Part shown: piece by piece, positions 3,001 to 16,243 of the stretch
How positions within the stretch are numbered: position 1 is the stretch's first letter
Layout: every line of letters starts with the position of its first letter
NCBI RefSeq assembly: GCF_000970025.1
Contig: NZ_CP009528.1
Location: forward strand, 248,001 to 312,000
Direction of reading: 5' to 3'
Length of the DNA stretch: 64,000 nucleotides
Origin: Methanosarcina barkeri MS
GTDB taxonomy: Archaea; Halobacteriota; Methanosarcinia; Methanosarcinales; Methanosarcinaceae
The notes under the pieces: generated by a model
The model's database searches: none
What the model was told of the DNA's origin: nothing
What the model saw: the letters and a program-made list of their open reading frames with translations, nothing else
Program-made: the position numbers and the translations under genes

Positions 3001-6000
3001 CAGACTGTTTCAATCCTTGTTTTAGTGGATCTTGCTCACGAATACTCTGAAATTTCATTGTCATCACCAGACACTTCCCCGAAGGTTTCAATCCTTGTTT
3101 TAGTGGATCTTGCTCACGAATATGAAAACAAGGTCTCTAGAACGAGCCATGATTCTTTGAGTTTCAATCCTTGTTTTAGTGGATCTTGCTCACGAATCAT
3201 AACATCACCAGATTGTTTCTATCCCATTCACAAGTTTCAATCCTTGTTTTAGTGGATCTTGCTCACGAATAATACAGAGGATTTTTTTGAGCAACTTAAA
3301 CAATATGAGTTTCAATCCTTGTTTTAGTGGATCTTGCTCACGAATGAAAGTACAGGACTTCAGAAATTAGGATTGTAATATTGTTTCAATCCTTGTTTTA
3401 GTGGATCTTGCTCACGAATTTGGGCGAACCAAAGTGATTTATTATCCCGCAAAGAACGTTTCAATCCTTGTTTTAGTGGATCTTGCTCACGAATCTCTGG
3501 AAAGCAAATAAAAGTTGAATCCGAGTCTGGTTTCAATCCTTGTTTTAGTGGATCTTGCTCACGAATATAGGTAGTTGATATGTCAAATAACAAATAGTCA
3601 TGTTTCAATCCTTGTTTTAGTGGATCTTGCTCACGAATCTAAATAATACTGCTACCGTAGAGCTCAGAAGCTCCGTTTCAATCCTTGTTTTAGTGGATCT
3701 TGCTCACGAATACTCAGGCATTTTATTGATGTCTGCTTGCTGTTCTGATGTGTTTCAATCCTTGTTTTAGTGGATCTTGCTCACGAATTCCGGTTAGGTT
3801 GATGAGGACGAATGCGAGCTGAAGTTTCAATCCTTGTTTTAGTGGATCTTGCTCACGAATAGAGAGTATTGATTATTCAAAATCGCAAGTCCGGCGTATG
3901 GTGGGTTTCAATCCTTGTTTTAGTGGATCTTGCTCACGAATTTTTGTCAGGATAGAAAAGTGCCTTTCATATCTAAGTTTCAATCCTTGTTTTAGTGGAT
4001 CTTGCTCACGAATACGAATCTGATCAGATAGAGGCTACAGATCTGTTTAAGTTTCAATCCTTGTTTTAGTGGATCTTGCTCACGAATTCCAAGAATTACC
4101 CGGCTCTTCAGTCGTTGGACTGTGTTTCAATCCTTGTTTTAGTGGATCTTGCTCACGAATACCGCTCTTTATAATTTAGCTAAGGACGAAGCAATGTTTC
4201 AATCCTTGTTTTAGTGGATCTTGCTCACGAATGCGCGTGATAGTTCATTTATTCTTCCTCACAAATTGCGTTTCAATCCTTGTTTTAGTGGATCTTGCTC
4301 ACGAATTTATTTGCAGTAGGTCAAAAGTGACCTTAGTTGATGTTTCAATCCTTGTTTTAGTGGATCTTGCTCACGAATTTAAAACAGTGTACCAATTTAG
4401 ACAGGAACTGGAGTTTCAATCCTTGTTTTAGTGGATCTTGCTCACGAATAAGCTCTTATAGGTCCGGTGGGGTGTGTTGCAGAAGTTTCAATCCTTGTTT
4501 TAGTGGATCTTGCTCACGAATCTTTCAGGAAAACCGGCTTCTGGATAGCAGAAGATTAGTTTCAATCCTTGTTTTAGTGGATCTTGCTCACGAATAACGC
4601 AAAAAAACTATGAGAAACATATAGGCAGATAGTTTCAATCCTTGTTTTAGTGGATCTTGCTCACGAATTGTCATTAGATCATTTACCCTCGGTGCCGGTA
4701 GTGTTGTTTCAATCCTTGTTTTAGTGGATCTTGCTCACGAATCTTTCAGGAAAACCGGCTTCTGGATAGCAGAAGATTAGTTTCAATCCTTGTTTTAGTG
4801 GATCTTGCTCACGAATAACGCAAAAAAACTATGAGAAACATATAGGCAGATAGTTTCAATCCTTGTTTTAGTGGATCTTGCTCACGAATTGTCATTAGAT
4901 CATTTACCCTCGGTGCCGGTAGTGTTGTTTCAATCCTTGTTTTAGTGGATCTTGCTCACGAATGATAAGAAGGAAGGCCTTTTCAGGAATCGCATATATG
5001 TTTCAATCCTTGTTTTAGTGGATCTTGCTCACGAATAATAAAGGAGGGCGTTTTGAATGAATGATGATGTTGAGGGTTTCAATCCTTGTTTTAGTGGATC
5101 TTGCTCACGAATCCGAAAGCGTTACCGGGTTCCTCACCAATATGTATTAGTTTCAATCCTTGTTTTAGTGGATCTTGCTCACGAATCCAAAAAATTAAGA
5201 AAGATCAAACATCCTGAGCTCGTTTCAATCCTTGTTTTAGTGGATCTTGCTCACGAATGCTCGAGACAGTAGAGCTGTTCAAGCTGCAAGAAGTCTGTTT
5301 CAATCCTTGTTTTAGTGGATCTTGCTCACGAATACAGTCAATTGGATTGTATATCCTTTCTCCGTTCTTGGTTTCAATCCTTGTTTTAGTGGATCTTGCT
5401 CACGAATGCAAAGGGTTTGAGCGGGATATCAAAGTGGAAGGGTTTCAATCCTTGTTTTAGTGGATCTTGCTCACGAATTGTGTTTATAATGTGTTTTGTA
5501 TCAAAGAGGGGAATGTTTCAATCCTTGTTTTAGTGGATCTTGCTCACGAATGAAACTAAAAAATTGAAAGGCAGACCGTCAAAAACGTTTCAATCCTTGT
5601 TTTAGTGGATCTTGCTCACGAATGACGCGAACGACCGTATGGAAACAGCGTGTATTCATTGTTTCAATCCTTGTTTTAGTGGATCTTGCTCACGAATTCT
5701 GAATTAGTCCAGGTATGATCAAAAGTTTCGAGTGGTTTCAATCCTTGTTTTAGTGGATCTTGCTCACGAATTCTGAATTAGTCCAGGTATGATCAAAAGT
5801 TTCGAGTGGTTTCAATCCTTGTTTTAGTGGATCTTGCTCACGAATTTCCCCATTGGGTGTATAATAGCCCCTGAATCCAAGAGTTTCAATCCTTGTTTTA
5901 GTGGATCTTGCTCACGAATCCGCTGGCATTAGCTGAGCTATCAGAGTCAATGATGTTTCAATCCTTGTTTTAGTGGATCTTGCTCACGAATATAAAAGAG

Positions 6001-7527
6001 CACAATATCTCATTAGTAGTTGTTTGTTTCAATCCTTGTTTTAGTGGATCTTGCTCACGAATATGAGTGCATATTCACAACATTATCCAACTTTAAAAAG
6101 TTTCAATCCTTGTTTTAGTGGATCTTGCTCACGAATAGATGGAAAGTATGAATTCTTTGTCCACTGCTATTCTAAGTTTCAATCCTTGTTTTAGTGGATC
6201 TTGCTCACGAATTGGGAGCCACTAACAATTCCCGAAGAGTGGTTATCTGGTTTCAATCCTTGTTTTAGTGGATCTTGCTCACGAATGTTGATATGTCAAA
6301 TGACGAATACGAAACGATCACAAGTTTCAATCCTTGTTTTAGTGGATCTTGCTCACGAATTTCTTGCAGTTCCTTCATTCAAAGGGGTTGTTTCATCGTT
6401 GGTTTCAATCCTTGTTTTAGTGGATCTTGCTCACGAATTGTTCAGAGGTTATTTTCCCTCCGAACCCTGTAGGTTTCAATCCTTGTTTTAGTGGATCTTG
6501 CTCACGAATGATACTGGATTTTGTAAAGGTGGAAAAGAGTGGAGTTTCAATCCTTGTTTTAGTGGATCTTGCTCACGAATATTTTTGAATGTCTCCAACC
6601 GTCCCCGGTTCTCTGTGTTTCAATCCTTGTTTTAGTGGATCTTGCTCACGAATAAGAGGTAAAAGAGTCAAACTTCTTGAACGTATTGAGTTTCAATCCT
6701 TGTTTTAGTGGATCTTGCTCACGAATACCTCTTTAAATTCATTCAAATTGTATCCACAATTTTGTTTCAATCCTTGTTTTAGTGGATCTTGCTCACGAAT
6801 TCGGAGAAGCTGCTGGTCCAGCATTATCAATTATTTCGTTTCAATCCTTGTTTTAGTGGATCTTGCTCACGAATATATCTGTGTATTACAATAGGCTGCA
6901 AATACTACACTGTTTCAATCCTTGTTTTAGTGGATCTTGCTCACGAATACCCTATCTTCAAAAGTATCAATTTTAAAAGCAGAAAGTTTCAATCCTTGTT
7001 TTAGTGGATCTTGCTCACGAATATATCGTCAGAGTCTCCTAGAATCATATCAGAAAGTTTCAATCCTTGTTTTAGTGGATCTTGCTCACGAATTTTTGGA
7101 TTTTGTAGCACCCGATACTATTTTTTGTTTCAATCCTTGTTTTAGTGGATCTTGCTCACGAATGTTAAATTGGGGTTGAATATTGCACCATCGATTTTGT
7201 TTCAATCCTTGTTTTAGTGGATCTTGCTCACGAATCTGTAACAGTTGGCACAAATCCTCGCGGGGTTGCTGGTTTCAATCCTTGTTTTAGTGGATCTTGC
7301 TCACGAATCGGCTTATTAGACCTAGAAATCATATTTGAATAGGTGTGTTTCAATCCTTGTTTTAGTGGATCTTGCTCACGAATTCGTTTTCCAGTGGAAA
7401 CTAAGCTATTTATATACGTTTCAATCCTTGTTTTAGTGGATCTTGCTCACGAATTTGAGTATGTTCCTGAAGAAGAACAGTATCCACTATGTTTCAATCC
7501 TTGTTTTAGTGGATCTTGCTCACGAAT
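1..7527 (-). CRISPR. Large CRISPR array, 102 intact 37-bp repeats
   Basis: A 37-bp direct repeat that begins GTTTCAATCC and ends GCTCACGAAT on the + strand occurs 102 times in full from 101 to 7527, with a period of 70-81 bp. This gives 101 spacers of 33-44 bp, mostly 34-38; about 91 are different. Left of this lie two decayed copies (about 1-25 and 49-65), and the copy at 101-137 has TAATGG where the others have TAGTGG. Read on the - strand the repeat ends ATTGAAAC, the usual 8-nt crRNA 5' handle of type I-B/III systems. Decay at the left end and the AT-rich leader at the right end both indicate leftward transcription. Nearly identical 37-nt repeats serve I-B and III systems in M. mazei. No cas gene is in the window, so the partner type is inferred. 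Confidence 0.98.
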
Positions 7528-7640
7528 AGGGCAAAAATTTCCGTTATTTGGCTAGAAAAGGCCTGAAATGAGTCCTTTTTTGGGGTTGAAATTCTTGCTG
7601 GAAAATTATCAAACCCTTTATAAATACAAGAAAAACAGGG
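7528..7640 (-). promoter_or_regulatory. CRISPR leader and promoter
   Basis: This AT-rich non-coding DNA abuts the leader-proximal repeat (7491-7527). On the - strand a TATA-like TATTTATAAA lies at about 7616-7625, some 90 nt upstream of the first repeat, which is a suitable place for an archaeal promoter driving leftward pre-crRNA synthesis. The assignment rests on repeat polarity, trailer decay at the opposite end and this TATA box. The exact leader length is not visible. Confidence 0.7.
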
Positions 7641-7871
7641 TTTCTAGCAGTTTGGAAACATTCTGGTATATGCCTTTCTTTCTATTTAACTTTTGTATTT
7701 TAAGTCGTCTTAAATAAATTCAAAAGCCGGCCTAATTCAATAATGTTTTTGTTATTTTTTAAAAACACCAAGTTTAAACTATTTTTCTTCATCCAGATAC
7801 TGAATTCAATCCAAAACTAACAAACGAATAAAAATAATATTTTGTATTATTTAATTTTATAAAATTAACAT
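7641..7871. other. Non-coding AT-rich spacer between CRISPR leader and ABC importer
   Basis: No plausible gene is seen here. The sequence is very AT-rich and separates the divergently read CRISPR leader from the promoter of the first binding-protein gene. Part of it may belong to the leader, but nothing in it is recognisable as a feature. Confidence 0.5.
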
Positions 7872-7905
7872 ATTTGTATCACATATATTTAGGAATGTAT
7901 TTATA
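7872..7905 (+). promoter_or_regulatory. Duplicated promoter element, copy 1
   Basis: A 34-bp segment (ATTTGTATCACATATATTT through GGAATGTATTTATA) recurs at 10120-10153 upstream of the paralogous gene with only two mismatches, while the surrounding DNA is much less similar. Its right end, GTATTTATA, resembles an archaeal TATA box. A start site about 25 nt downstream would give a 5' UTR of roughly 145 nt before the codon at 8076. The part left of the TATA box may be an operator for a shared regulator; that is inference. Confidence 0.6.
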
Positions 7906-8075
7906 ACAAAACGAGTGTAGTCTAATTCATCTTAATTTTTATCAAAAAAATATTACTATATTGTTATATTTTCTCTATATCGTGTTATTTAATTGATCTG
8001 AGATTACTGAAAACACTACTGGTAGGTAATACTATTGCAATAATTTTATGTAATTCTGAAAAAGGAGGAGTTTAA

Positions 8076-9803
8076 ATCAAGAAAAATCAGCAATATATCT
8101 TAATAGGGTCAATAGCCATAATTATTGCTGCTGCTATTGTTTTCATACCGGGTGACGAGCCAGCTAGTCCGTCTTCCGGAGTATCGAATGAATCGGTTTC
8201 CAGAGGCTCGAATGAGTTAGCTTCCGGAGATTCTAATGAATCAACTTTCCAGGGCTCGGATGAGTTAACTTCTGGAGATTCAAAAAAATCAACTTCCCAG
8301 GGCTCGGATGAGCTGGTAGCAGCCGTAGGGACCCATGGTGGAGAACCGGAAGCCGGTTTTAACCCGATTACCGGATGGGGTTACAGCAGTGAACCGCTGG
8401 TCCAAAGTACTCTTTTTAAAAAGGACAGTAATGGGTCTCTGATCAATGATTTAGCGACAAATTATTCTGTTAGTGACGATGGGTTTACCTGGACTGTTAA
8501 TATAAGAAATGATGTTAAATTCCATGATGGGGTACCTTTAACTGCCAGAGATGTAGCATTCACGTTTAATACAGCAGCAAATTCGAGTGGAGTCGATCTT
8601 TCAGTGCTGAAAAATGCGGTAGCCCTCGACAACTACACAGTTGAATTCAAATTAAACGACCCGCAAACGACTTTTATTCACAAGCTTTCAGTTATCGGGA
8701 TTGTGCCTGAACATGCTTACAATGAGACTTACGGAGAACATCCAATCGGGTCAGGCCCATATCGATTCGTAGAATGGGATAAAGGCCAGCAGGCAATCTT
8801 TGAAGCAAATCCGGATTACTACGGCCAGAAGCCGTACTTTAAGAAATTAACTTTACTCTTCATGCAGTCCGACACGGCTTTTGCAGCAGCTAAATCAGGA
8901 CAGGTTGACATAGCTGAAATTCCTTCTTCCTACGCTAATCAGAAAGTCGATGGAATGAAAATAGAGTCCCTTAGTTCCATTGATGCTCGCGGAATAACAT
9001 TCCCAATGCAGCCCGACACGGGAAAGAAAACGGAAAATGGCTATTCAATCGGAAATAATGTAACCTCCGATCCTGCGATAAGAAAAGCCCTGAACATCGG
9101 AATAGACAGGCAGGCCTTAATCGATGGAGCATTAAACGGGCAGGGTGAAGAGGAATTTACTGGAGTGGACAAACTACCCTGGGGCAATAAGGACGCTATA
9201 TTCGAAGACGGAAAAGTAGACGAAGCAAAGAAGCTTTTAGCGGACGCTGGCTGGAAAGATACCGACGGTGACGGTATTCTTGAAAAGAACGGGACGAAAG
9301 CAGAATTTACCTTATTGTATTCCTCAAACGCCCAGGAAAGGCAAGCTTTAGCCGTTGCACTGAGCGAAGAAGCTAAAGAACTGGGAATAAACATTAAAGT
9401 CGAAGGTAAGAGCTGGGACGAGATTGATACCATGGCGCATTCAACTCCTGTAGTTTTCGGTTATGGTTCGCTTGATCCGACGGACTTATACCTTAGATAT
9501 TACAGCAAAAGCTACGACCCTGCAAACTACAACAATATAATACTGTACAACAATTCGGTCGTGGATAACTATCTCAGGACAGCCATAACCAGCACTGATC
9601 AGAACACTGCCAATAAAAACTGGCAACTGGCTGCATGGGATGGAACAACTGGATTTTCTGAAAAAGGAGACGCTACCTGGCTCTGGATTGCAACTATCAA
9701 TTACATGTACATTATGGACAAGGATATAGACATCGGAACCCCAAAAATTCAGCCTCACGGTGCCAATATCTTCGGTAATATCCTGGAGTGGAAACGTACA
9801 TAA
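8076..9803 (+). CDS. ABC importer substrate-binding protein (SBP_bac_5), paralog 1
   Basis: Predicted 575-aa solute-binding protein of the peptide/nickel family 5, acting on the outer face of the membrane. An uncleaved-looking hydrophobic segment (residues about 8-26) has no lipobox Cys. It is followed by a Ser/Glu/Asp-rich stalk of repeated GSDEL/NES-like units (about 30-80) and the binding domain (IRNDVKF..G...TARDVAFTFN; GSGPYRFVEWDKGQQAIFE; RKALNIGIDRQALIDG). No AUG is usable at the 5' end. The frame stays open back to an ATC at 8076, placed 5-6 nt after a strong ribosome site AAAGGAGGAG, and the paralog at 10394 aligns from the equivalent codon (ATT). The first in-frame AUG (8604) would delete the anchor and a third of the domain. 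Peptide, nickel or another ligand cannot be told apart. Confidence 0.88.
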   Translation: MKKNQQYILIGSIAIIIAAAIVFIPGDEPASPSSGVSNESVSRGSNELASGDSNESTFQGSDELTSGDSKKSTSQGSDELVAAVGTHGGEPEAGFNPITGWGYSSEPLVQSTLFKKDSNGSLINDLATNYSVSDDGFTWTVNIRNDVKFHDGVPLTARDVAFTFNTAANSSGVDLSVLKNAVALDNYTVEFKLNDPQTTFIHKLSVIGIVPEHAYNETYGEHPIGSGPYRFVEWDKGQQAIFEANPDYYGQKPYFKKLTLLFMQSDTAFAAAKSGQVDIAEIPSSYANQKVDGMKIESLSSIDARGITFPMQPDTGKKTENGYSIGNNVTSDPAIRKALNIGIDRQALIDGALNGQGEEEFTGVDKLPWGNKDAIFEDGKVDEAKKLLADAGWKDTDGDGILEKNGTKAEFTLLYSSNAQERQALAVALSEEAKELGINIKVEGKSWDEIDTMAHSTPVVFGYGSLDPTDLYLRYYSKSYDPANYNNIILYNNSVVDNYLRTAITSTDQNTANKNWQLAAWDGTTGFSEKGDATWLWIATINYMYIMDKDIDIGTPKIQPHGANIFGNILEWKRT

Positions 9804-9827
9804 AATTAAACCGGAACTGGATTTTAG

Positions 9828-9874
9828 AAGGAACGGTCACGAAAGTCTCTTCGTAAGGCTGAGGACCGTTCCTT
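9828..9874 (+). terminator. Perfect 11-bp stem hairpin after binding protein 1
   Basis: AAGGAACGGTC (9828-9838) pairs exactly with GACCGTTCCTT (9864-9874). The loop itself contains a smaller stem (ACGAA/TTCGT). It lies 24 nt after the stop codon and is followed by a short T-rich stretch, so it is probably a 3' processing or termination structure. Such a stable stem could also let the binding-protein mRNA accumulate separately from downstream genes. Confidence 0.6.
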
Positions 9875-10119
9875 AAAGTTTTTAGTAAAACTGAGGATGA
9901 AAAACTCCGCAGTGTGACTCTTTTTTGGTAAATTTGATTGAAATTTATATTTTGCCTTTGCTCTCTTTCAGGATCGCCAGAATCTATACTTCTTTCAGTA
10001 TTCAACACATCGACTATTTTAAAATTCAGGAAAACGTGTGAGGTTTTTTATTTAGTATTACTAAACTACTTGAAACTACTGTTTTTTATTTAGTATTACT
10101 AAACTACTTAAAACTACTA
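9875..10119. repeat. Intergenic region with tandem 38-bp duplication
   Basis: No gene is seen. Two 38-bp units at 10043-10080 and 10081-10118 (GTTTTTTATTTAGTATTACT...) differ at a single position. They lie directly before the second copy of the 34-bp promoter element. Confidence 0.75.
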
Positions 10120-10153
10120 ATTTGTAACACATATATTTCGGAATGTATTTATA
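10120..10153 (+). promoter_or_regulatory. Duplicated promoter element, copy 2
   Basis: This is the second copy of the 34-bp segment at 7872-7905 (two mismatches), ending in the TATA-like GTATTTATA. It precedes binding protein 2 by about 240 nt. Conservation of this block, and not of the neighbouring DNA, suggests that both binding-protein genes share a promoter and operator. Confidence 0.6.
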
Positions 10154-10236
10154 GTAAATTGTTTTAATTGATTTATCTTAACTTTACTAATAAAAGTAAT
10201 ATTTTATTATCAAGTTTTATCACGAAAATCTTATTT

Positions 10237-10284
10237 CAGTCGAATACCCCGCTAGCTTGCTGCGGGGTGCGCCAGTGCAACTTT
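10237..10284. repeat. GC-rich hairpin repeat (possible IS200/IS605 end)
   Basis: CAGTCGAATACCCCGCTAGC continues into GCTTGCTGCGGGGTGCGCCA. The stem ACCCCGC/GCGGGGT stands out from AT-rich surroundings. The same motif recurs in rearranged form at 54288-54411, upstream of a decayed tnpB. Subterminal hairpins like this are typical of IS200/IS605 ends, so this may be a relic of an excised element. It falls between the promoter element and the start codon of binding protein 2, so it would be transcribed in that 5' UTR. Confidence 0.5.
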
Positions 10285-10393
10285 GATTTAATATAAAATT
10301 TCGGATCATCTGGTCAAGTTTAAAAATCCTTACTTGACAGTTAAATTCTTGTTTAAATGTTCGGGATTCTGGTAAAATAGAGGAGGTATTTAT

Positions 10394-12130
10394 ATTCAGA
10401 AAAATCAACAGTATCTACTGATAGGGACAGTAGTCATAATTATAGCGATTATTTTTATTTTAACATCAATGGGCGATCCGATTATCTCGTCATCCCAGGT
10501 TTCTGATGAATTAGTTTCCGGGGGCTCGGATGAATTGGTTCCCGAGGACTCGGATGAATCAGTTTCTAGGAACTCAGATGAACTAGTTTCTAAAAGCTCT
10601 GATGAACTTGTGGTGAATGTAAATTCACATACAGGTGAACCCGAAACCGGATTTGACCCACTTCTTGGATGGGGGTGCGGGCATGTGAATTTTGAACCAC
10701 TTATACAGAGCACTCTTTTTAAATCAGCTGATGATGGAAGCATAATAAACGATCTTGCTACAAATTATTCTATCAGTTCGGATGGGAAAAACTGGACTGT
10801 GTATATAAGAGATGATGTCAAGTTCACGGACGGTGAAAACTTAACCGCAGAAGATGTGGCATTTACGTTTAATACCGCAATTGGAAGTAACTCCGAACTG
10901 GATATGAGTAATCTCGAAAAAGCCACTGCAATAAATAATACTGTAGTTGAATTCAAACTGAAAGAACCTCAGTCCAGTTTCATATGGAGACTCAGATACG
11001 TTGGGATTGTACCAGAACATGCATATAAAAAAGAAACCTACGGATCCAATCCGATAGGATCTGGGCCATATAAATTCGTAGAATGGGATAAGGGCCAGCA
11101 AGCAATCTTAGAATTAAACGAAAATTACTATGGAAAAAAGCCGTACTTCAAAAAAATAACCCTGCTGTTTTTGGATAAAGATACTGCGCTTGCAGCAGTA
11201 AAATCCGGTGATGTGGACATAGCTGAGATTGAGATTAGCCATGCAAACCAGACCGTAGATGGGTACAAGTTAGTAGCTCTTCCGGCAGCAAGAGCTCAGG
11301 GCCTATCCTTCCCTATACAGAATAACACAGGCAAAAAAAGCCTTCAGGGAGATCCAATAGGCAATAATGTCACAGCAGACATAGCAATTCGAAAAGCCTT
11401 AAACATCGGTATAGACAGAAAAGCCCTGCTTGAAGGAGTTATATACGGAAAAGGAGCCGTAGAATATACCGGAGTAGACCAGCGGAACTTTGGGAATCCT
11501 GAAGCGAAAGTTAATGATTCAAATCCCGAAGAAGCCATAAAAATACTGGAAAACGCAGGCTGGAAAGACACCGATGGCGATGGAATTCGGGAGAATAACG
11601 GAACAAAGGCTGAATTTAAGTTATACTACTCTGCTGCGGATCAGACAAGGCAAGCTCTATCGGTAGCTGTAAGTGAACAGGCCAAAGAATTAGGTATAAA
11701 AACAGACCTTGTAGGAGCAAGCTGGGACGAAATATATGCTAACCAGTACAGTTCTGCTGTGTTATACGCATACAGCAGCATAGATACCTTTAATCTCTAC
11801 CAGCAGTACCACAGCAAAGAAGCCGACAATACATACAAAAATCCCGGCCTTTACAATAACTCTGTTGTAGACGGATATCTGGAAACAGCTTTAAGATCTA
11901 CAGATCAGGACCAGGCTACAAAATATTGGAAGTTAGCTGCATATGACGGAAATACCGGTTTTGGGCCAGCAGGAGATGCTACATGGTTATGGTTGGTGAC
12001 TATTGACTACCTCTACATGGCAGACGAAACCCTGGATATTGGTACTCCACAAAAAAACTCAGGAGCAGATGTTTTAGGAAATATCTACGAATGGAAAAGA
12101 GTAGACACAGCCAGCTCGACTTTCAAATGA
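10394..12130 (+). CDS. ABC importer substrate-binding protein (SBP_bac_5), paralog 2
   Basis: A 578-aa paralog of the protein encoded at 8076 with the same layout: N-terminal hydrophobic anchor (LLIGTVVIIIAIIFIL), a stalk of repeated S-D-E-L/S units (residues about 30-75), then the family-5 binding domain (TVYIRDDVKFTDGENLTAED, GSGPYKFVEWDKGQQAILE, RKALNIGIDRKALLEG). The reading frame opens with ATT at 10394, about 6 nt after GAGGAGG, and residues 2-9 align with paralog 1 (QKNQQYLL against KKNQQYIL). This supports a non-AUG start, since the next AUG (10469) lies inside the anchor-proximal region. It is the gene closest to the permeases, with 377 nt between. The ligand is unknown. Confidence 0.88.
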   Translation: MQKNQQYLLIGTVVIIIAIIFILTSMGDPIISSSQVSDELVSGGSDELVPEDSDESVSRNSDELVSKSSDELVVNVNSHTGEPETGFDPLLGWGCGHVNFEPLIQSTLFKSADDGSIINDLATNYSISSDGKNWTVYIRDDVKFTDGENLTAEDVAFTFNTAIGSNSELDMSNLEKATAINNTVVEFKLKEPQSSFIWRLRYVGIVPEHAYKKETYGSNPIGSGPYKFVEWDKGQQAILELNENYYGKKPYFKKITLLFLDKDTALAAVKSGDVDIAEIEISHANQTVDGYKLVALPAARAQGLSFPIQNNTGKKSLQGDPIGNNVTADIAIRKALNIGIDRKALLEGVIYGKGAVEYTGVDQRNFGNPEAKVNDSNPEEAIKILENAGWKDTDGDGIRENNGTKAEFKLYYSAADQTRQALSVAVSEQAKELGIKTDLVGASWDEIYANQYSSAVLYAYSSIDTFNLYQQYHSKEADNTYKNPGLYNNSVVDGYLETALRSTDQDQATKYWKLAAYDGNTGFGPAGDATWLWLVTIDYLYMADETLDIGTPQKNSGADVLGNIYEWKRVDTASSTFK

Positions 12131-12507
12131 GGAGTTAATCCTGCAAGTATGGGTAATTAATCCTGTAACTATGGTTGATTAATCCTGCAGTTCGCGAATA
12201 GTCAATCTCGTAATTAGCAAGTAATTAATTCCATAGTTAACGAGCAATAAATTCGGCATAGTGAATAACTGAGCTTTTAATTCTGATCTTGCAGGTTCAG
12301 TTACTTACTTTTTCCTTTCTTTTTATCCAAGGCTGGGTTAATGTGACTGATTGGAAAAGGTAATAAAATGACTATTTTACCAGATTTAACTCCATTCTAA
12401 CTTAAAAAAGTGCAAGAACTCCTAACAATTCCTGGAAATCGTTTACAGACTGGTATTCACGTTAAAATGGATATTATTATTGGAATAATTATGCACGAGG
12501 GAGTAGC
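12131..12507. other. Intergenic region with short degenerate repeats
   Basis: No intact gene is seen. Right after the binding-protein stop, TTAATCCTG plus a variable 9-10 nt is repeated three times (about 12134-12192). From 12368 a short frame with an internal stop (MTILPDLTPF, stop, LKKVQELLTIPGN) may be a gene relic but was not identified. A ribosome site GAGGGAG at about 12497 precedes the next gene. Confidence 0.5.
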
Positions 12508-13500
12508 GTGTCAAACAATGAAAAAATAGTGGGCTTCGTCGGAAAAAAGGCCCTCAGGTTGGCAAGCCTTTTGATTATAGTTTGTCTTGCAAGTTTCATG
12601 CTTATCCAGTATTCGCCTATAGATCCCGTTAGAGCCTATATTGGGGAAATGCCAGTAACCGCAGAACACAAAGCTAAACTTGAAGCTTACTGGGGGGTTA
12701 ATATCCCTCCGCAGGAAAAGTTCCTGAACTGGGCTGGAGATATTCTTAAAGGAGACTTTGGGACTTCACTGATTTATAGGGTTCCAGTTATTGATGTCAT
12801 TAAAGAACGATTTACAGCTTCCCTTGTTCTAATGGGAATTTCTTGGCTGTTTTCAGGAATTTTAGGTTTTGCTTTAGGAATAATAGCTGGTGCAAAGCAA
12901 GGTACGTGGGTCGATAAGGCAATAAAGATTTATTGTTACGCTCTGGCTGCTGCACCGACATTCTGGTTAGCACTGATTCTTCTGATAGTGTTTTCAGTAT
13001 ATTTGGGCTGGTTCCCAATAGGATTACGTGTACCTATAGGGGTTACAGCCGAAAATGTGACGTTTTTTGATTGGTTTAAGCGTTTAATTCTCCCTGCACT
13101 AACTTTGAGTCTATTAGACATTGCCAAAATTACAATGTTCACTCGAGAAAAATTAATCGAAGTCCTCTCCAGTGATTATGTCTTATTTGCAAAGGCAAGA
13201 GGTGAAAAAGGGCTGGATCTGGTATTGAGGCATGGAATTCGAAACGTTGCACTTCCGGCCATTACCCTGCAGTTTTTAGGATTCAGTGAACTGTTCGGGG
13301 GCACAGTTCTGGTTGAACAGGTATTCTCATATCCCGGAATCGGACAGACTGCAGTAGCAGCAGGACTGAAATCCGATGTACCGCTGCTTTTGGGAATAGT
13401 CATCTTCAGTACTTTATTTGTATTCTTCGGAAACCTGATTGCTGATATTATCTATGAATTTGTTGACCCCAGGATAAAGCAACAGGAGGCATTAATGTGA
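12508..13500 (+). CDS. ABC importer permease, NikB/DppB/OppB type
   Basis: A 330-aa inner-membrane permease. An N-terminal membrane helix (residues about 15-35, LASLLIIVCLASFMLIQYSP) is followed by the family's typical periplasmic segment with DPVRAYIGEMPVTAEHKAKL and then five more helices. The cytoplasmic loop AKARGEKGLDLVLRHGIRN carries the EAA-like motif that contacts the ATPase. Length matches the family (about 310-340). The start is GTG, ten nt after GAGGGAG. The stop overlaps the next start (GTGA), so the permeases are translationally coupled. Confidence 0.93.
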   Translation: MSNNEKIVGFVGKKALRLASLLIIVCLASFMLIQYSPIDPVRAYIGEMPVTAEHKAKLEAYWGVNIPPQEKFLNWAGDILKGDFGTSLIYRVPVIDVIKERFTASLVLMGISWLFSGILGFALGIIAGAKQGTWVDKAIKIYCYALAAAPTFWLALILLIVFSVYLGWFPIGLRVPIGVTAENVTFFDWFKRLILPALTLSLLDIAKITMFTREKLIEVLSSDYVLFAKARGEKGLDLVLRHGIRNVALPAITLQFLGFSELFGGTVLVEQVFSYPGIGQTAVAAGLKSDVPLLLGIVIFSTLFVFFGNLIADIIYEFVDPRIKQQEALM

Positions 13501-14354
13501 GCACTACTGTTGTGACAGTTAACAGGGGACTATTTAGAGGATTAAATCTCAGGCAGAAAACGCTTCTGATAATAGGTTTCACTTCACTTTTATTACTTTC
13601 AATTGTGGTTTCCAGCGTGTTTTTAGGTGAGGAACCGCTACATACCAATTTCGGCTCTAAAAACCTTGCTCCTTCCCTGGAACATCCATTCGGAACAGAT
13701 TGGATGGGAAGAGACATGTTTATAAGGACTCTGGAAGGACTGGGTTTAAGTATACTGGTTGGAGGGCTTGCTTCTACAATCAGCACTGTATTGACCGTAA
13801 TTTTAGGATTACTTTCAAGTGCAGGAAAAACTGCAGACTCCTTTGTGTCGTGGCTGGTAGACCTCTTTCTTTCAATTCCTCATCTGCTTTTAATAATTCT
13901 TATTTCCATCGGAATGGGAGGAGGAGCAACAGGAGTTATTACAGGAGTTGCATTAACGCACTGGCCGAGCTTAACAAGGGTTGTAAGAGCAGAAATCAAG
14001 CAACTGAAAACCCAGGAGTACATTCATATCTCCAGGAATCTTGGCAGGTCAAAATGGTGGATAGCTATAAGACACATTCTACCTCATCTGGTTCCCCAGA
14101 TACTGTTAGGCACGATTTTAATGTTTCCACATGCTATTTTGCACGAAGCTTCAGTCACATTCCTGGGGTTCGGACTTTCACCACACGAACCTGCAATCGG
14201 TATAATTCTTTCCGAATCTATGAGGTATCTTTCAGCAGGATACTGGTGGCTTGCATTTTTCCCGGGATTATCGCTGTTAATTGTAGTTCTGGCATTTGAT
14301 ATGATTGGAGAAAGTTTAGGAAAGCTGATGAATCCGAAAAATGCTCATGAATAA
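13497..14354 (+). CDS. ABC importer permease, NikC/DppC/OppC type
   Basis: A 285-aa second permease. It has an N-terminal helix (LLIIGFTSLLLLSIVVSSVF), the hallmark HPFGTDWMGRDMFIRTLEGL of the OppC family, a core of further helices and an EAA-type loop (HISRNLGRSKWWIAIRHILP). It begins with GTG overlapping the upstream stop by 4 nt. It forms the heteromeric channel with the preceding permease. Confidence 0.93.
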   Translation: MSTTVVTVNRGLFRGLNLRQKTLLIIGFTSLLLLSIVVSSVFLGEEPLHTNFGSKNLAPSLEHPFGTDWMGRDMFIRTLEGLGLSILVGGLASTISTVLTVILGLLSSAGKTADSFVSWLVDLFLSIPHLLLIILISIGMGGGATGVITGVALTHWPSLTRVVRAEIKQLKTQEYIHISRNLGRSKWWIAIRHILPHLVPQILLGTILMFPHAILHEASVTFLGFGLSPHEPAIGIILSESMRYLSAGYWWLAFFPGLSLLIVVLAFDMIGESLGKLMNPKNAHE

Positions 14355-14583: not shown

Positions 14584-15642
14584 ATGGAAAATAAAGCTGA
14601 AATAAACCCTGAAAAAGAGTTAGCTACTAGACTTGAAACAGTTGCTGGAAAGGATAAAACAGTTACTGGAAAAAGGGATAAATCAATTGCTGGAGAACGG
14701 AAAAAAACTGAAGCTCTGTTGAACGTAGAAGATCTTTCGTTGTCGTTTACTCAATATTCGTTGGGCCTTAGACAGACTGAACTGAAAGTAATTTCTAATT
14801 TGAGTATCCAGGCTTATAAAGGTGAAATTCTGGCTATCGTAGGGTCAAGTGGATCAGGTAAAAGTCTTCTGGCTCATGCGATTTTAGGAATTTTGCCTTC
14901 AAACGCAAAACTAGAAGGTAAGATAGAATACGATGGTAAAGAACTTACCCAGAAAAGAAAAGAAGAAATGAGAGGCAAAGAAATTGCCCTGATCCCACAA
15001 GCTATAACCTATCTTGACCCTTTAATGAAAATCTCAAATCAAGTAATAGGATGCGTTGAAAAGAAAAAAGAAGGCTTAATGAAGAAACTTCAAAGAGAAA
15101 TTTTTCAGAGATACGATTTAAAGCCCGATGTCGAAAGAATGCTCCCTCATGAGCTCTCAGGAGGAATGGCTCGAAGAGTTCTGGTTTCGACTGCTGTAAT
15201 AAGCTCTTCCAAACTCGTAATTGCGGATGAACCAACTCCGGGGTTAGACGAAAATACTTTGAATGAGACTCTGAGTTACTTCAAAGACATGGCAGATAAG
15301 GGATGTGCAGTGATACTCATAACTCATGACATTGAAGCTGCATTAAAAATCTCCCATAAAATTGCAGTATTTTATGCAGGTACGGTTCTGGAAGTAGCTA
15401 ACGTTGAAGACTTTAAAAATAATGGTGGGAACCTAAGACATCCGTATACCCGTGCACTCTGGAATGCCCTTCCCCAGAACAAATTCCAGGCAATCAAAGG
15501 TCATCAACCGATGCAGGATGAAGTCACTGACGGATGCATTTTCTATGAAAGATGTTCCAAAAAGAAAGCTAGCTGTTCTCATGGAACTCCTCAATTGAAA
15601 CAGCTCAATGGAGGGATGGTGAGGTGCAATAATGCGTCTTAA
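14584..15642 (+). CDS. ABC importer ATPase, OppD/DppD/NikD type, with C-terminal Cys cluster
   Basis: A 352-aa ATPase. After a charged, poorly conserved N-terminus (residues 1-40) come Walker A GSSGSGKSLL, Q-loop ALIPQAITYLDPL, signature LSGGMARRVLVSTA, Walker B KLVIADEPTPGLD and H-loop ILITHD. The C-terminal oligopeptide-transporter extension holds four cysteines (C-X5-C-X6-C and a final C near VRCNN), the pattern linked to a 4Fe-4S site in dipeptide transporter ATPases. It overlaps the second ATPase gene by 11 nt. Signature and Walker motifs are intact. Confidence 0.92.
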   Translation: MENKAEINPEKELATRLETVAGKDKTVTGKRDKSIAGERKKTEALLNVEDLSLSFTQYSLGLRQTELKVISNLSIQAYKGEILAIVGSSGSGKSLLAHAILGILPSNAKLEGKIEYDGKELTQKRKEEMRGKEIALIPQAITYLDPLMKISNQVIGCVEKKKEGLMKKLQREIFQRYDLKPDVERMLPHELSGGMARRVLVSTAVISSSKLVIADEPTPGLDENTLNETLSYFKDMADKGCAVILITHDIEAALKISHKIAVFYAGTVLEVANVEDFKNNGGNLRHPYTRALWNALPQNKFQAIKGHQPMQDEVTDGCIFYERCSKKKASCSHGTPQLKQLNGGMVRCNNAS

Positions 15643-16243
15643 AGGTGAGAATATAAGTTTCGGGTATAAAAAAAATAGTTTGATTTTAAAGGATGTTAAT
15701 ATTTCTTTGGGCAGCGGAGAAGTACTGGGCCTGATCGGGGATAGTGGAAGCGGAAAATCAACTCTCTGTAAGATCTTAACAGGCTACGAAAATAAGTATC
15801 AGGGAAAAGTAAGGCTAGATGCAAAAGAAATTCCGTCAAAAGGCTATAACCCGGTCCAGCTCGTCTTCCAACATCCGGAAAAAGCTGTAAATCCTAAATG
15901 GAGAATGAAAGATATTCTAAACGAAGGACACCTTGTTTCACAGGATATTATAGAGGCATTTGGAATAAAAAATAACTGGCTTAACCGATGGCCCAATGAG
16001 CTTTCAGGAGGAGAACTCCAGAGATTTGCCCTTGCAAGAGCTTTAAGCCCTAAAACCAGGTTTTTAATTGCTGATGAAATTACTACAATGGTAGACGCTA
16101 TTACTCAAGCTCAAATCTGGAGTATCGTTTTAAATATCGTCGAAGAACTTAATATTGGAGTACTGGTCGTAAGCCATGACCAAAATTTAATTAATATGTT
16201 ATGTCAAGATACCATTTATCTAAAAGACATAAATAATGTTTGA
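15632..16243 (+). CDS. ABC importer ATPase, short NikE/OppF-like
   Basis: A 203-aa ATPase with Walker A GDSGSGKSTL, Q-loop VFQHPEKAVNP, signature LSGGELQRFALARAL, Walker B FLIADEITTMVD (Ile-Thr in place of the usual Pro-Thr) and H-loop VVSHD. It ends just past the H-loop, so it lacks the C-terminal extension present in its partner and in most OppF proteins (usually about 260-330 aa). It is the last gene of the importer operon. Confidence 0.9.
   Translation: MRLKGENISFGYKKNSLILKDVNISLGSGEVLGLIGDSGSGKSTLCKILTGYENKYQGKVRLDAKEIPSKGYNPVQLVFQHPEKAVNPKWRMKDILNEGHLVSQDIIEAFGIKNNWLNRWPNELSGGELQRFALARALSPKTRFLIADEITTMVDAITQAQIWSIVLNIVEELNIGVLVVSHDQNLINMLCQDTIYLKDINNV

Follow-up and report, generated by a model that had tools for sequence, protein, structure and literature searches.

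Conserved AUU, AUC, and AUA codons as probable start codons of tandem binding-protein genes and other genes in Methanosarcina

Can isoleucine codons serve as start codons in Methanosarcina? This question is raised by two tandem genes for transporter binding proteins of Methanosarcina barkeri MS, which lie in a stretch of 64,000 nucleotides (contig NZ_CP009528.1, positions 248,001 to 312,000; here, the window) within a genome of 4.57 Mb. Translation in archaea is described as starting at AUG, GUG, or UUG (PMC7531240), and none of these is found where the reading frames of the two genes appear to begin. We propose that AUU at position 10394 (gene 2) and AUC at position 8076 (gene 1) are real starts and that the two genes are part of a small group, found in Methanosarcina and related archaea, that has kept AUU, AUC, or AUA (AUH) as the start, a reading to which we assign a probability of about 0.92. 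It is based on observations made here, namely, that the codon and its spacing are conserved, that the sequence is coding from codon 4 onward, and that AUU is homologous to AUG in mtbC, the gene for the dimethylamine corrinoid protein.

In gene 2, a first-pass annotation of the same DNA had proposed ATT as the start, and ATT is indeed found at the position given there. The GAGGAGG motif claimed to precede it is present as well, but it covers positions 10380 to 10386, two bases 5' of the range of 10382 to 10388 stated there. Its GGAGG is followed 7 nt later by ATT, while an in-frame TAA shuts the frame upstream and no ATG, GTG, or TTG lies between this TAA and ATT; the first canonical in-frame codon on the 3' side is ATG 10469. 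In gene 1, GGAGG is followed by a TAA that directly touches ATC, and the nearest in-frame canonical codon downstream is GTG 8604, at a distance of 176 codons. The two tandem genes are 60% alike, and both products clearly belong to the SBP_bac_5 family, with PF00496 scores of 240 and 267 bits versus a gathering score of 32.4.

Homologous binding proteins were searched for in 30 genomes of the genus and 111 genomes of the family, and their start codons were read in all start regions present on contigs, excluding copies cut by contig ends. This yielded 47 start regions (45 scripted copies, L052, and copy 1 of genome G002 at L045) from 26 genomes, of which 23 belong to the genus and two to the sister genus g4, the last being a further metagenome-assembled genome (MAG) of Methanosarcina (L094). 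GGAGG-N7-AUH was observed in all 47, with ATT in 37, ATC in 9, and ATA in 1; ATG, GTG, or TTG was found at the start codon in none. Thus, the survey that the first-pass annotation had called for gave AUH throughout, its notion that the paralogs start at the homologous site with different Ile codons was borne out, and the AUG-bearing orthologs that would have spoken against it did not appear. The spacer measured 7 nt in 45/45 scripted copies and in both further copies, and 7 nt is also the commonest spacing before ATG (26/79 in the genome sample). A canonical in-frame start upstream in the open frame was lacking in 37/45 copies. Among the matches listed, less closely related homologs from Methanolobus, Methanomethylovorans, and Methanobrevibacter start with ATG and have different signal peptides.

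The sequence that follows AUH behaves as coding sequence. Synonymous variation with retention of the residue was observed at codons 4 to 11, and the ratio of nonsynonymous to synonymous differences (pN/pS) at codons 2 to 20 was 0.48 for copy 1 (231 pairs) and 0.56 for copy 2 (171 pairs), compared to 0.16 and 0.14, respectively, for the rest of the protein. These ratios and the synonymous variation indicate that the segment is translated, beginning at or just after AUH. The segment evolves faster than the body of the protein, as signal peptides do.

The same type of start was found in mtbC (NCBIfam NF041607, 393.6 bits versus a cut-off of 350). ATT was the first codon in 29/29 orthologs from three genera (23/23 in the genus and 6/6 in g4 and g5), and AUG, GUG, or UUG was found in 0/29; the count for the genus covers orthologs with residue 1 aligned, since 7/30 loci, which are ATG paralogs or fragments, were unaligned there. 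The spacer was 7 nt in 20/23 and 8 nt in 3/23 genus orthologs. Synonymous positions of the gene were far less constant: 0/73 fourfold-degenerate columns were invariant for T, 3/73 were invariant at all, and 0/8 Ile columns were invariant. The invariance of the ATT start, although 70/73 fourfold and 8/8 Ile columns vary, speaks for selection on AUU itself. Moreover, 12 mtbC copies were read in the Methanolobus-like genus g11, in which one genome matches a Methanolobus psychrotolerans record by sequence (L088, L107). ATG stood at the start codon in ten of them and ATT after GGAGG in two (L385 and L386), and genomes G072 and G091 each had one ATG copy and one ATT copy. ATT therefore replaces an ATG start at the same codon. 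A search with the mtbC leader pattern gave one match each in 25/111 family genomes, and the reversed control gave one match. We also observed, in the leaders of mtbC (L190:5210-5851) and of its 23 genus orthologs, an out-of-frame ATG directly after the Shine-Dalgarno sequence (GGAGGATG) in nearly all species, often with a stop two codons on that overlaps the ATT start.

For mtbC, published measurements can be set beside the sequence. In 22/23 genus orthologs, ATG first occurs at codon 47, exactly 138 nt downstream of ATT; the remaining one has an ATG already at codon 33. In Methanosarcina mazei, mtbC (MM_1687) was stated to start 138 nt upstream of the annotated start, with reference to ribosome profiling (Ribo-seq) data of PMC11456600, and a fusion of mtbC with GlnK1 migrated as a larger protein than the standard, in agreement with 46 additional residues (PMC11549558). 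Both the published Ribo-seq start and the reporter size thus agree with AUU in position. As the 138-nt offset is shared by the published start and by the distance from ATT to the first ATG, two independent data sets, the measured start of M. mazei mtbC is very probably AUU, a codon that the mtbC passages of PMC11549558 leave unnamed.

Further members were sought in 80 pieces of this genome, each 20 kb long, which together with the window make up 1.664 Mb, or about 36% of the genome. The strict criterion, GGAGG-N5-9-ATH ahead of the earliest canonical start in an open frame, was matched by 17 of 2,580 open frames. Four of these were confirmed by conservation (the pair in the window, mtbC, and a reverse transcriptase), two were tested and proved variable (a NifH-like fusion, L277, and an LTD protein, L182), and the other 11 had a canonical start immediately after or looked noncoding. 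Because GGAGG is required, this criterion overlooks AUH starts behind weaker motifs. When weaker Shine-Dalgarno motifs were admitted and codon scores used, 38 matches resulted, which added little and pointed to a universal stress protein (L269). The reverse transcriptase is of group II type (L169:17683-18873; 286.4 bits versus a cut-off of 300) and directly adjoins a second CRISPR-like array. Its starts were ATT, ATC, ATC, ATA, and ATT, i.e., AUH in 5/5 loci with an aligned N terminus and AUG, GUG, or UUG in 0/5; the other 10 of the 15 loci, being fragments or diverged, stand outside this count.

Such starts are most likely used as follows. On an mRNA with a leader, GGAGG would pair with the 3' end of 16S rRNA, for which the archaeal consensus is AUCACCUCCU (PMC7531240), and this pairing would bring AUH, which follows 7 nt later at the usual distance, into the P site. 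The initiator Met-tRNA (anticodon CAU) may then start at AUH despite the third-position mismatch, and the protein would begin with Met. The strong Shine-Dalgarno sequence would compensate for the weak AUH codon, which might tune or regulate output, perhaps via initiation fidelity (aIF1).

Two bacterial systems and one archaeal gene invite comparison. As expected for near-cognate starts of the infC and sigR kind, a codon other than AUG, GUG, or UUG stands at a normally spaced Shine-Dalgarno sequence, the codon is conserved in relatives, and a usable in-frame canonical start near by is lacking (upstream in the 37/45 copies mentioned above, and for 176 codons downstream in paralog 1). The first-pass annotation had pointed to infC, which is apt as a precedent for the codon but not for the feedback. 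We know of no IF3 in the archaeal host. aIF1 has an ATG start in all 20 parsed loci of 29, so that a feedback of the infC type on the factor's own start codon was not seen in these loci. The infC gene (IF3) of Escherichia coli is a normal gene with a Shine-Dalgarno sequence and a conserved AUU start (PMC5472188); however, it is bacterial and IF3 represses its own AUU, whereas the genes considered here are archaeal and encode a transporter binding protein, MtbC, and a reverse transcriptase. Non-canonical starts are reported to be discriminated against by aIF1 in S. solfataricus (PMC8211752, PMC6237735) and are acted on by IF3 in bacteria (PMC5472188). In sigR of Streptomyces, the start is GTC in 32/34 and GTT in 2/34 cases (PMC5472188). 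Like the AUH starts, it is a non-canonical start kept genus-wide, with a strong conserved ribosome-binding site and misannotation to a nearby canonical codon, but sigR is bacterial and its control by IF3 was established by experiment, while the AUH starts come from sequence comparison. M. mazei mtbC has the same codon type and leader, and the AUU described here falls on its corrected start, 138 nt upstream; PMC11549558 treats this start as a single annotation error.

Several points weigh against AUH initiation in the binding-protein genes. In 42 full-length binding-protein sequences, 7/51 invariant fourfold columns also lacked G, and a missing ATG at one column is therefore not rare by itself. 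A canonical in-frame start upstream of AUH is present in 8/45 copies. The binding-protein starts themselves are read from sequence comparison, and the Ribo-seq claim for mtbC comes from a later paper, with the main text of PMC11456600 making no mention of mtbC. The absence of third-base G had also been tried as proof of selection in the binding-protein family and was set aside as weak, given the same 7/51 control columns.

Among the alternatives, the one that fares best leaves the AUH starts real but takes them as ordinary tolerated near-cognate starts without a regulatory role, the strong Shine-Dalgarno sequence making the codon unimportant. We hold this to be quite possible, at somewhat less than even odds. 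Three other genes swap ATA with canonical starts between species. The NifH-like fusion (L277:364-2682, a 772-residue frame with a NifH-like beginning) had 3 ATA, 4 GTG, 1 ATG, and 2 TTG starts in 10 genomes; the universal stress protein (L269:2888-3358), with ATA in the source genome, had 8 ATA, 3 GTG, 13 ATG, and 1 CTG starts among 25 loci; and the LTD-like secreted protein (L182:10386-10808) had ATA in the source genome and ATA, ACG, or ATG among homologs, of which L335 seems to start with ACG. AUA is therefore tolerated as a start in the genus without being fixed. Likewise, third-base constraint in the binding-protein family is not extreme, and mtbC shows that an operon can be active with an AUU start. 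However, AUG, GUG, and UUG never occur at the start in any of the three conserved families, and the mtbC start is invariant while the synonymous sites of the gene vary. A bolder version, in which a dedicated AUH class (binding proteins, mtbC, reverse transcriptase, and more still to be found) is set jointly by initiation fidelity, for example by the state of aIF1 or aIF2, with the start codon as a shared regulatory signal, seems rather unlikely to us. The suggestion of the first-pass annotation that AUU could keep the binding proteins low or under regulation is not supported, and scarcity of the protein through AUU is not a safe reading. The mtbC operon is described as highly active on methylamines and regulated at the transcript level (PMC11549558), and an active operon with an AUU start would argue against it.

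Very improbable is a start downstream at ATG 10469, with the conserved upstream segment as an untranslated leader. This ATG is the first canonical in-frame start and the one that automatic annotation would pick. A start there would nevertheless cost the conserved hydrophobic signal segment, and paralog 1, if restricted to canonical starts, would offer nothing for 176 codons. In addition, codons 2 to 20 evolve as protein (pN/pS of about 0.5), and the ATG at the position of 10469 is missing in other copies; in copy 2 of genome G029, for example, the next canonical start comes 47 codons on.

Hardly credible is a start upstream in another frame, from which a frameshift or stop-start coupling near GGAGG would enter the binding-protein frame. 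A stop directly before AUH in 18/45 copies and the out-of-frame ATG that the mtbC leader retains right after GGAGG could be taken in its favor. Yet the codon preceding AUH is not conserved among binding-protein copies (TAA, TAG, TGA, CAG, TAT, CCG, TTG, and others). Since the mtbC spacer is 7 or 8 nt, the leader ATG shifts frame relative to the gene between orthologs while ATT stays constant, and the measured 138-nt offset fits ATT and not the leader ATG. Pyrrolysine read-through of TAG was considered separately and excluded, because TAA or TGA abuts AUH in 13 of the 18 stop-adjacent copies and read-through of TAG cannot explain those. Finally, errors in sequencing, which the first-pass annotation had already called unlikely, or in assembly, and likewise decay of the gene, have a negligible probability. 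Copy 1 of G002 (L045:819-1000, where the frame is broken about 45 codons after an intact ATT start region) might be cited in their favor, but the 47 independent copies from isolates and MAGs agree on AUH, and in other respects the proteins are intact and conserved.

The AUH starts stand at the head of a transporter locus in which the two binding-protein genes are followed by two permease genes and two ATPase genes of an ATP-binding cassette (ABC) transporter, all permease and ATPase matches being below equivalog cut-offs (Table 1). Each binding-protein gene is preceded by a copy of a 26-nt promoter-like element; such a repeat occurred in none of 100 shuffles of the window, and further copies of the locus also carry the core of the element, GGAATGTATTTATA. 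A perfect palindrome, CCCCGC..GCGGGG, lies at 10247 to 10267 before gene 2, and the same 21-nt palindrome was found elsewhere in the genome (L179:13369-13389). Just 5' of the transporter genes, at about 4559 to 7600 of the window, we observed a CRISPR-like array in which a 37-nt repeat occurs at least 41 times, with a 221-nt exact duplication spanning three repeat units at 4500 to 4941. Rfam gave no matches in the region from 7500 to 12600.

Table 1. Features of the binding-protein and transporter locus in window coordinates
Feature	Position	Strand	Basis
Promoter-like element of 26 nt ending in TTTATA, upstream of paralog 1	7880..7905	+	Two exact matches in window
Shine-Dalgarno GGAGG, paralog 1	8064..8068	+	Sequence, family comparison
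In-frame TAA touching AUC of paralog 1	8073..8075	+	Sequence
Probable AUC start codon, paralog 1	8076..8078	+	Family comparison; next canonical start 8604
Binding protein 1, 575 aa, SBP_bac_5	8076..9803	+	Pfam PF00496, 2.8e-79
Same 26-nt element (one free base), upstream of paralog 2	10128..10153	+	Two exact matches in window
In-frame TAA closing frame of gene 2 upstream	10373..10375	+	Sequence
Shine-Dalgarno GGAGG, binding protein 2	10382..10386	+	7 nt before AUU
Probable AUU start codon, binding protein 2	10394..10396	+	GGAGG-N7-AUH in 47/47; no canonical start between TAA and ATT
Binding protein 2, 578 aa, SBP_bac_5, N-terminal hydrophobic signal segment IQKNQQYLLIGTVVIIIAIIF	10394..12130	+	Pfam PF00496, 4.9e-71; orthologs
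ABC transporter permease 1, Opp/Nik type	12508..13500	+	NCBIfam Opp4B/Opp2B, below cut-offs
ABC transporter permease 2, Opp/Nik type	13497..14354	+	NCBIfam, below cut-offs
ABC transporter ATPase 1, OppD/NikD type	14584..15642	+	NCBIfam, below cut-offs
ABC transporter ATPase 2, NikE type	15632..16243	+	NCBIfam, below cut-offs

In the open-licence literature, we found no earlier description of Methanosarcina genes that start with AUU, AUC, or AUA. Non-canonical starts under selection are already known from infC and sigR; that literature gave no example of an archaeal genus with a conserved set of AUH starts among which is a core gene of methanogenesis. In methanogens amenable to genetics, an AUU, AUC, or AUA start is retained by at least three gene families, among them mtbC, which has a central role in forming methane from methylamines. 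As relatives keep Ile-codon starts, gene finders probably misplace such starts, and the annotated N termini, signal peptides, and reporter fusions of AUH-start genes would then be wrong. If our reading is true, the archaeal initiation complex would accept AUH in vivo, and archaea could exert control through the fidelity of start-codon selection.
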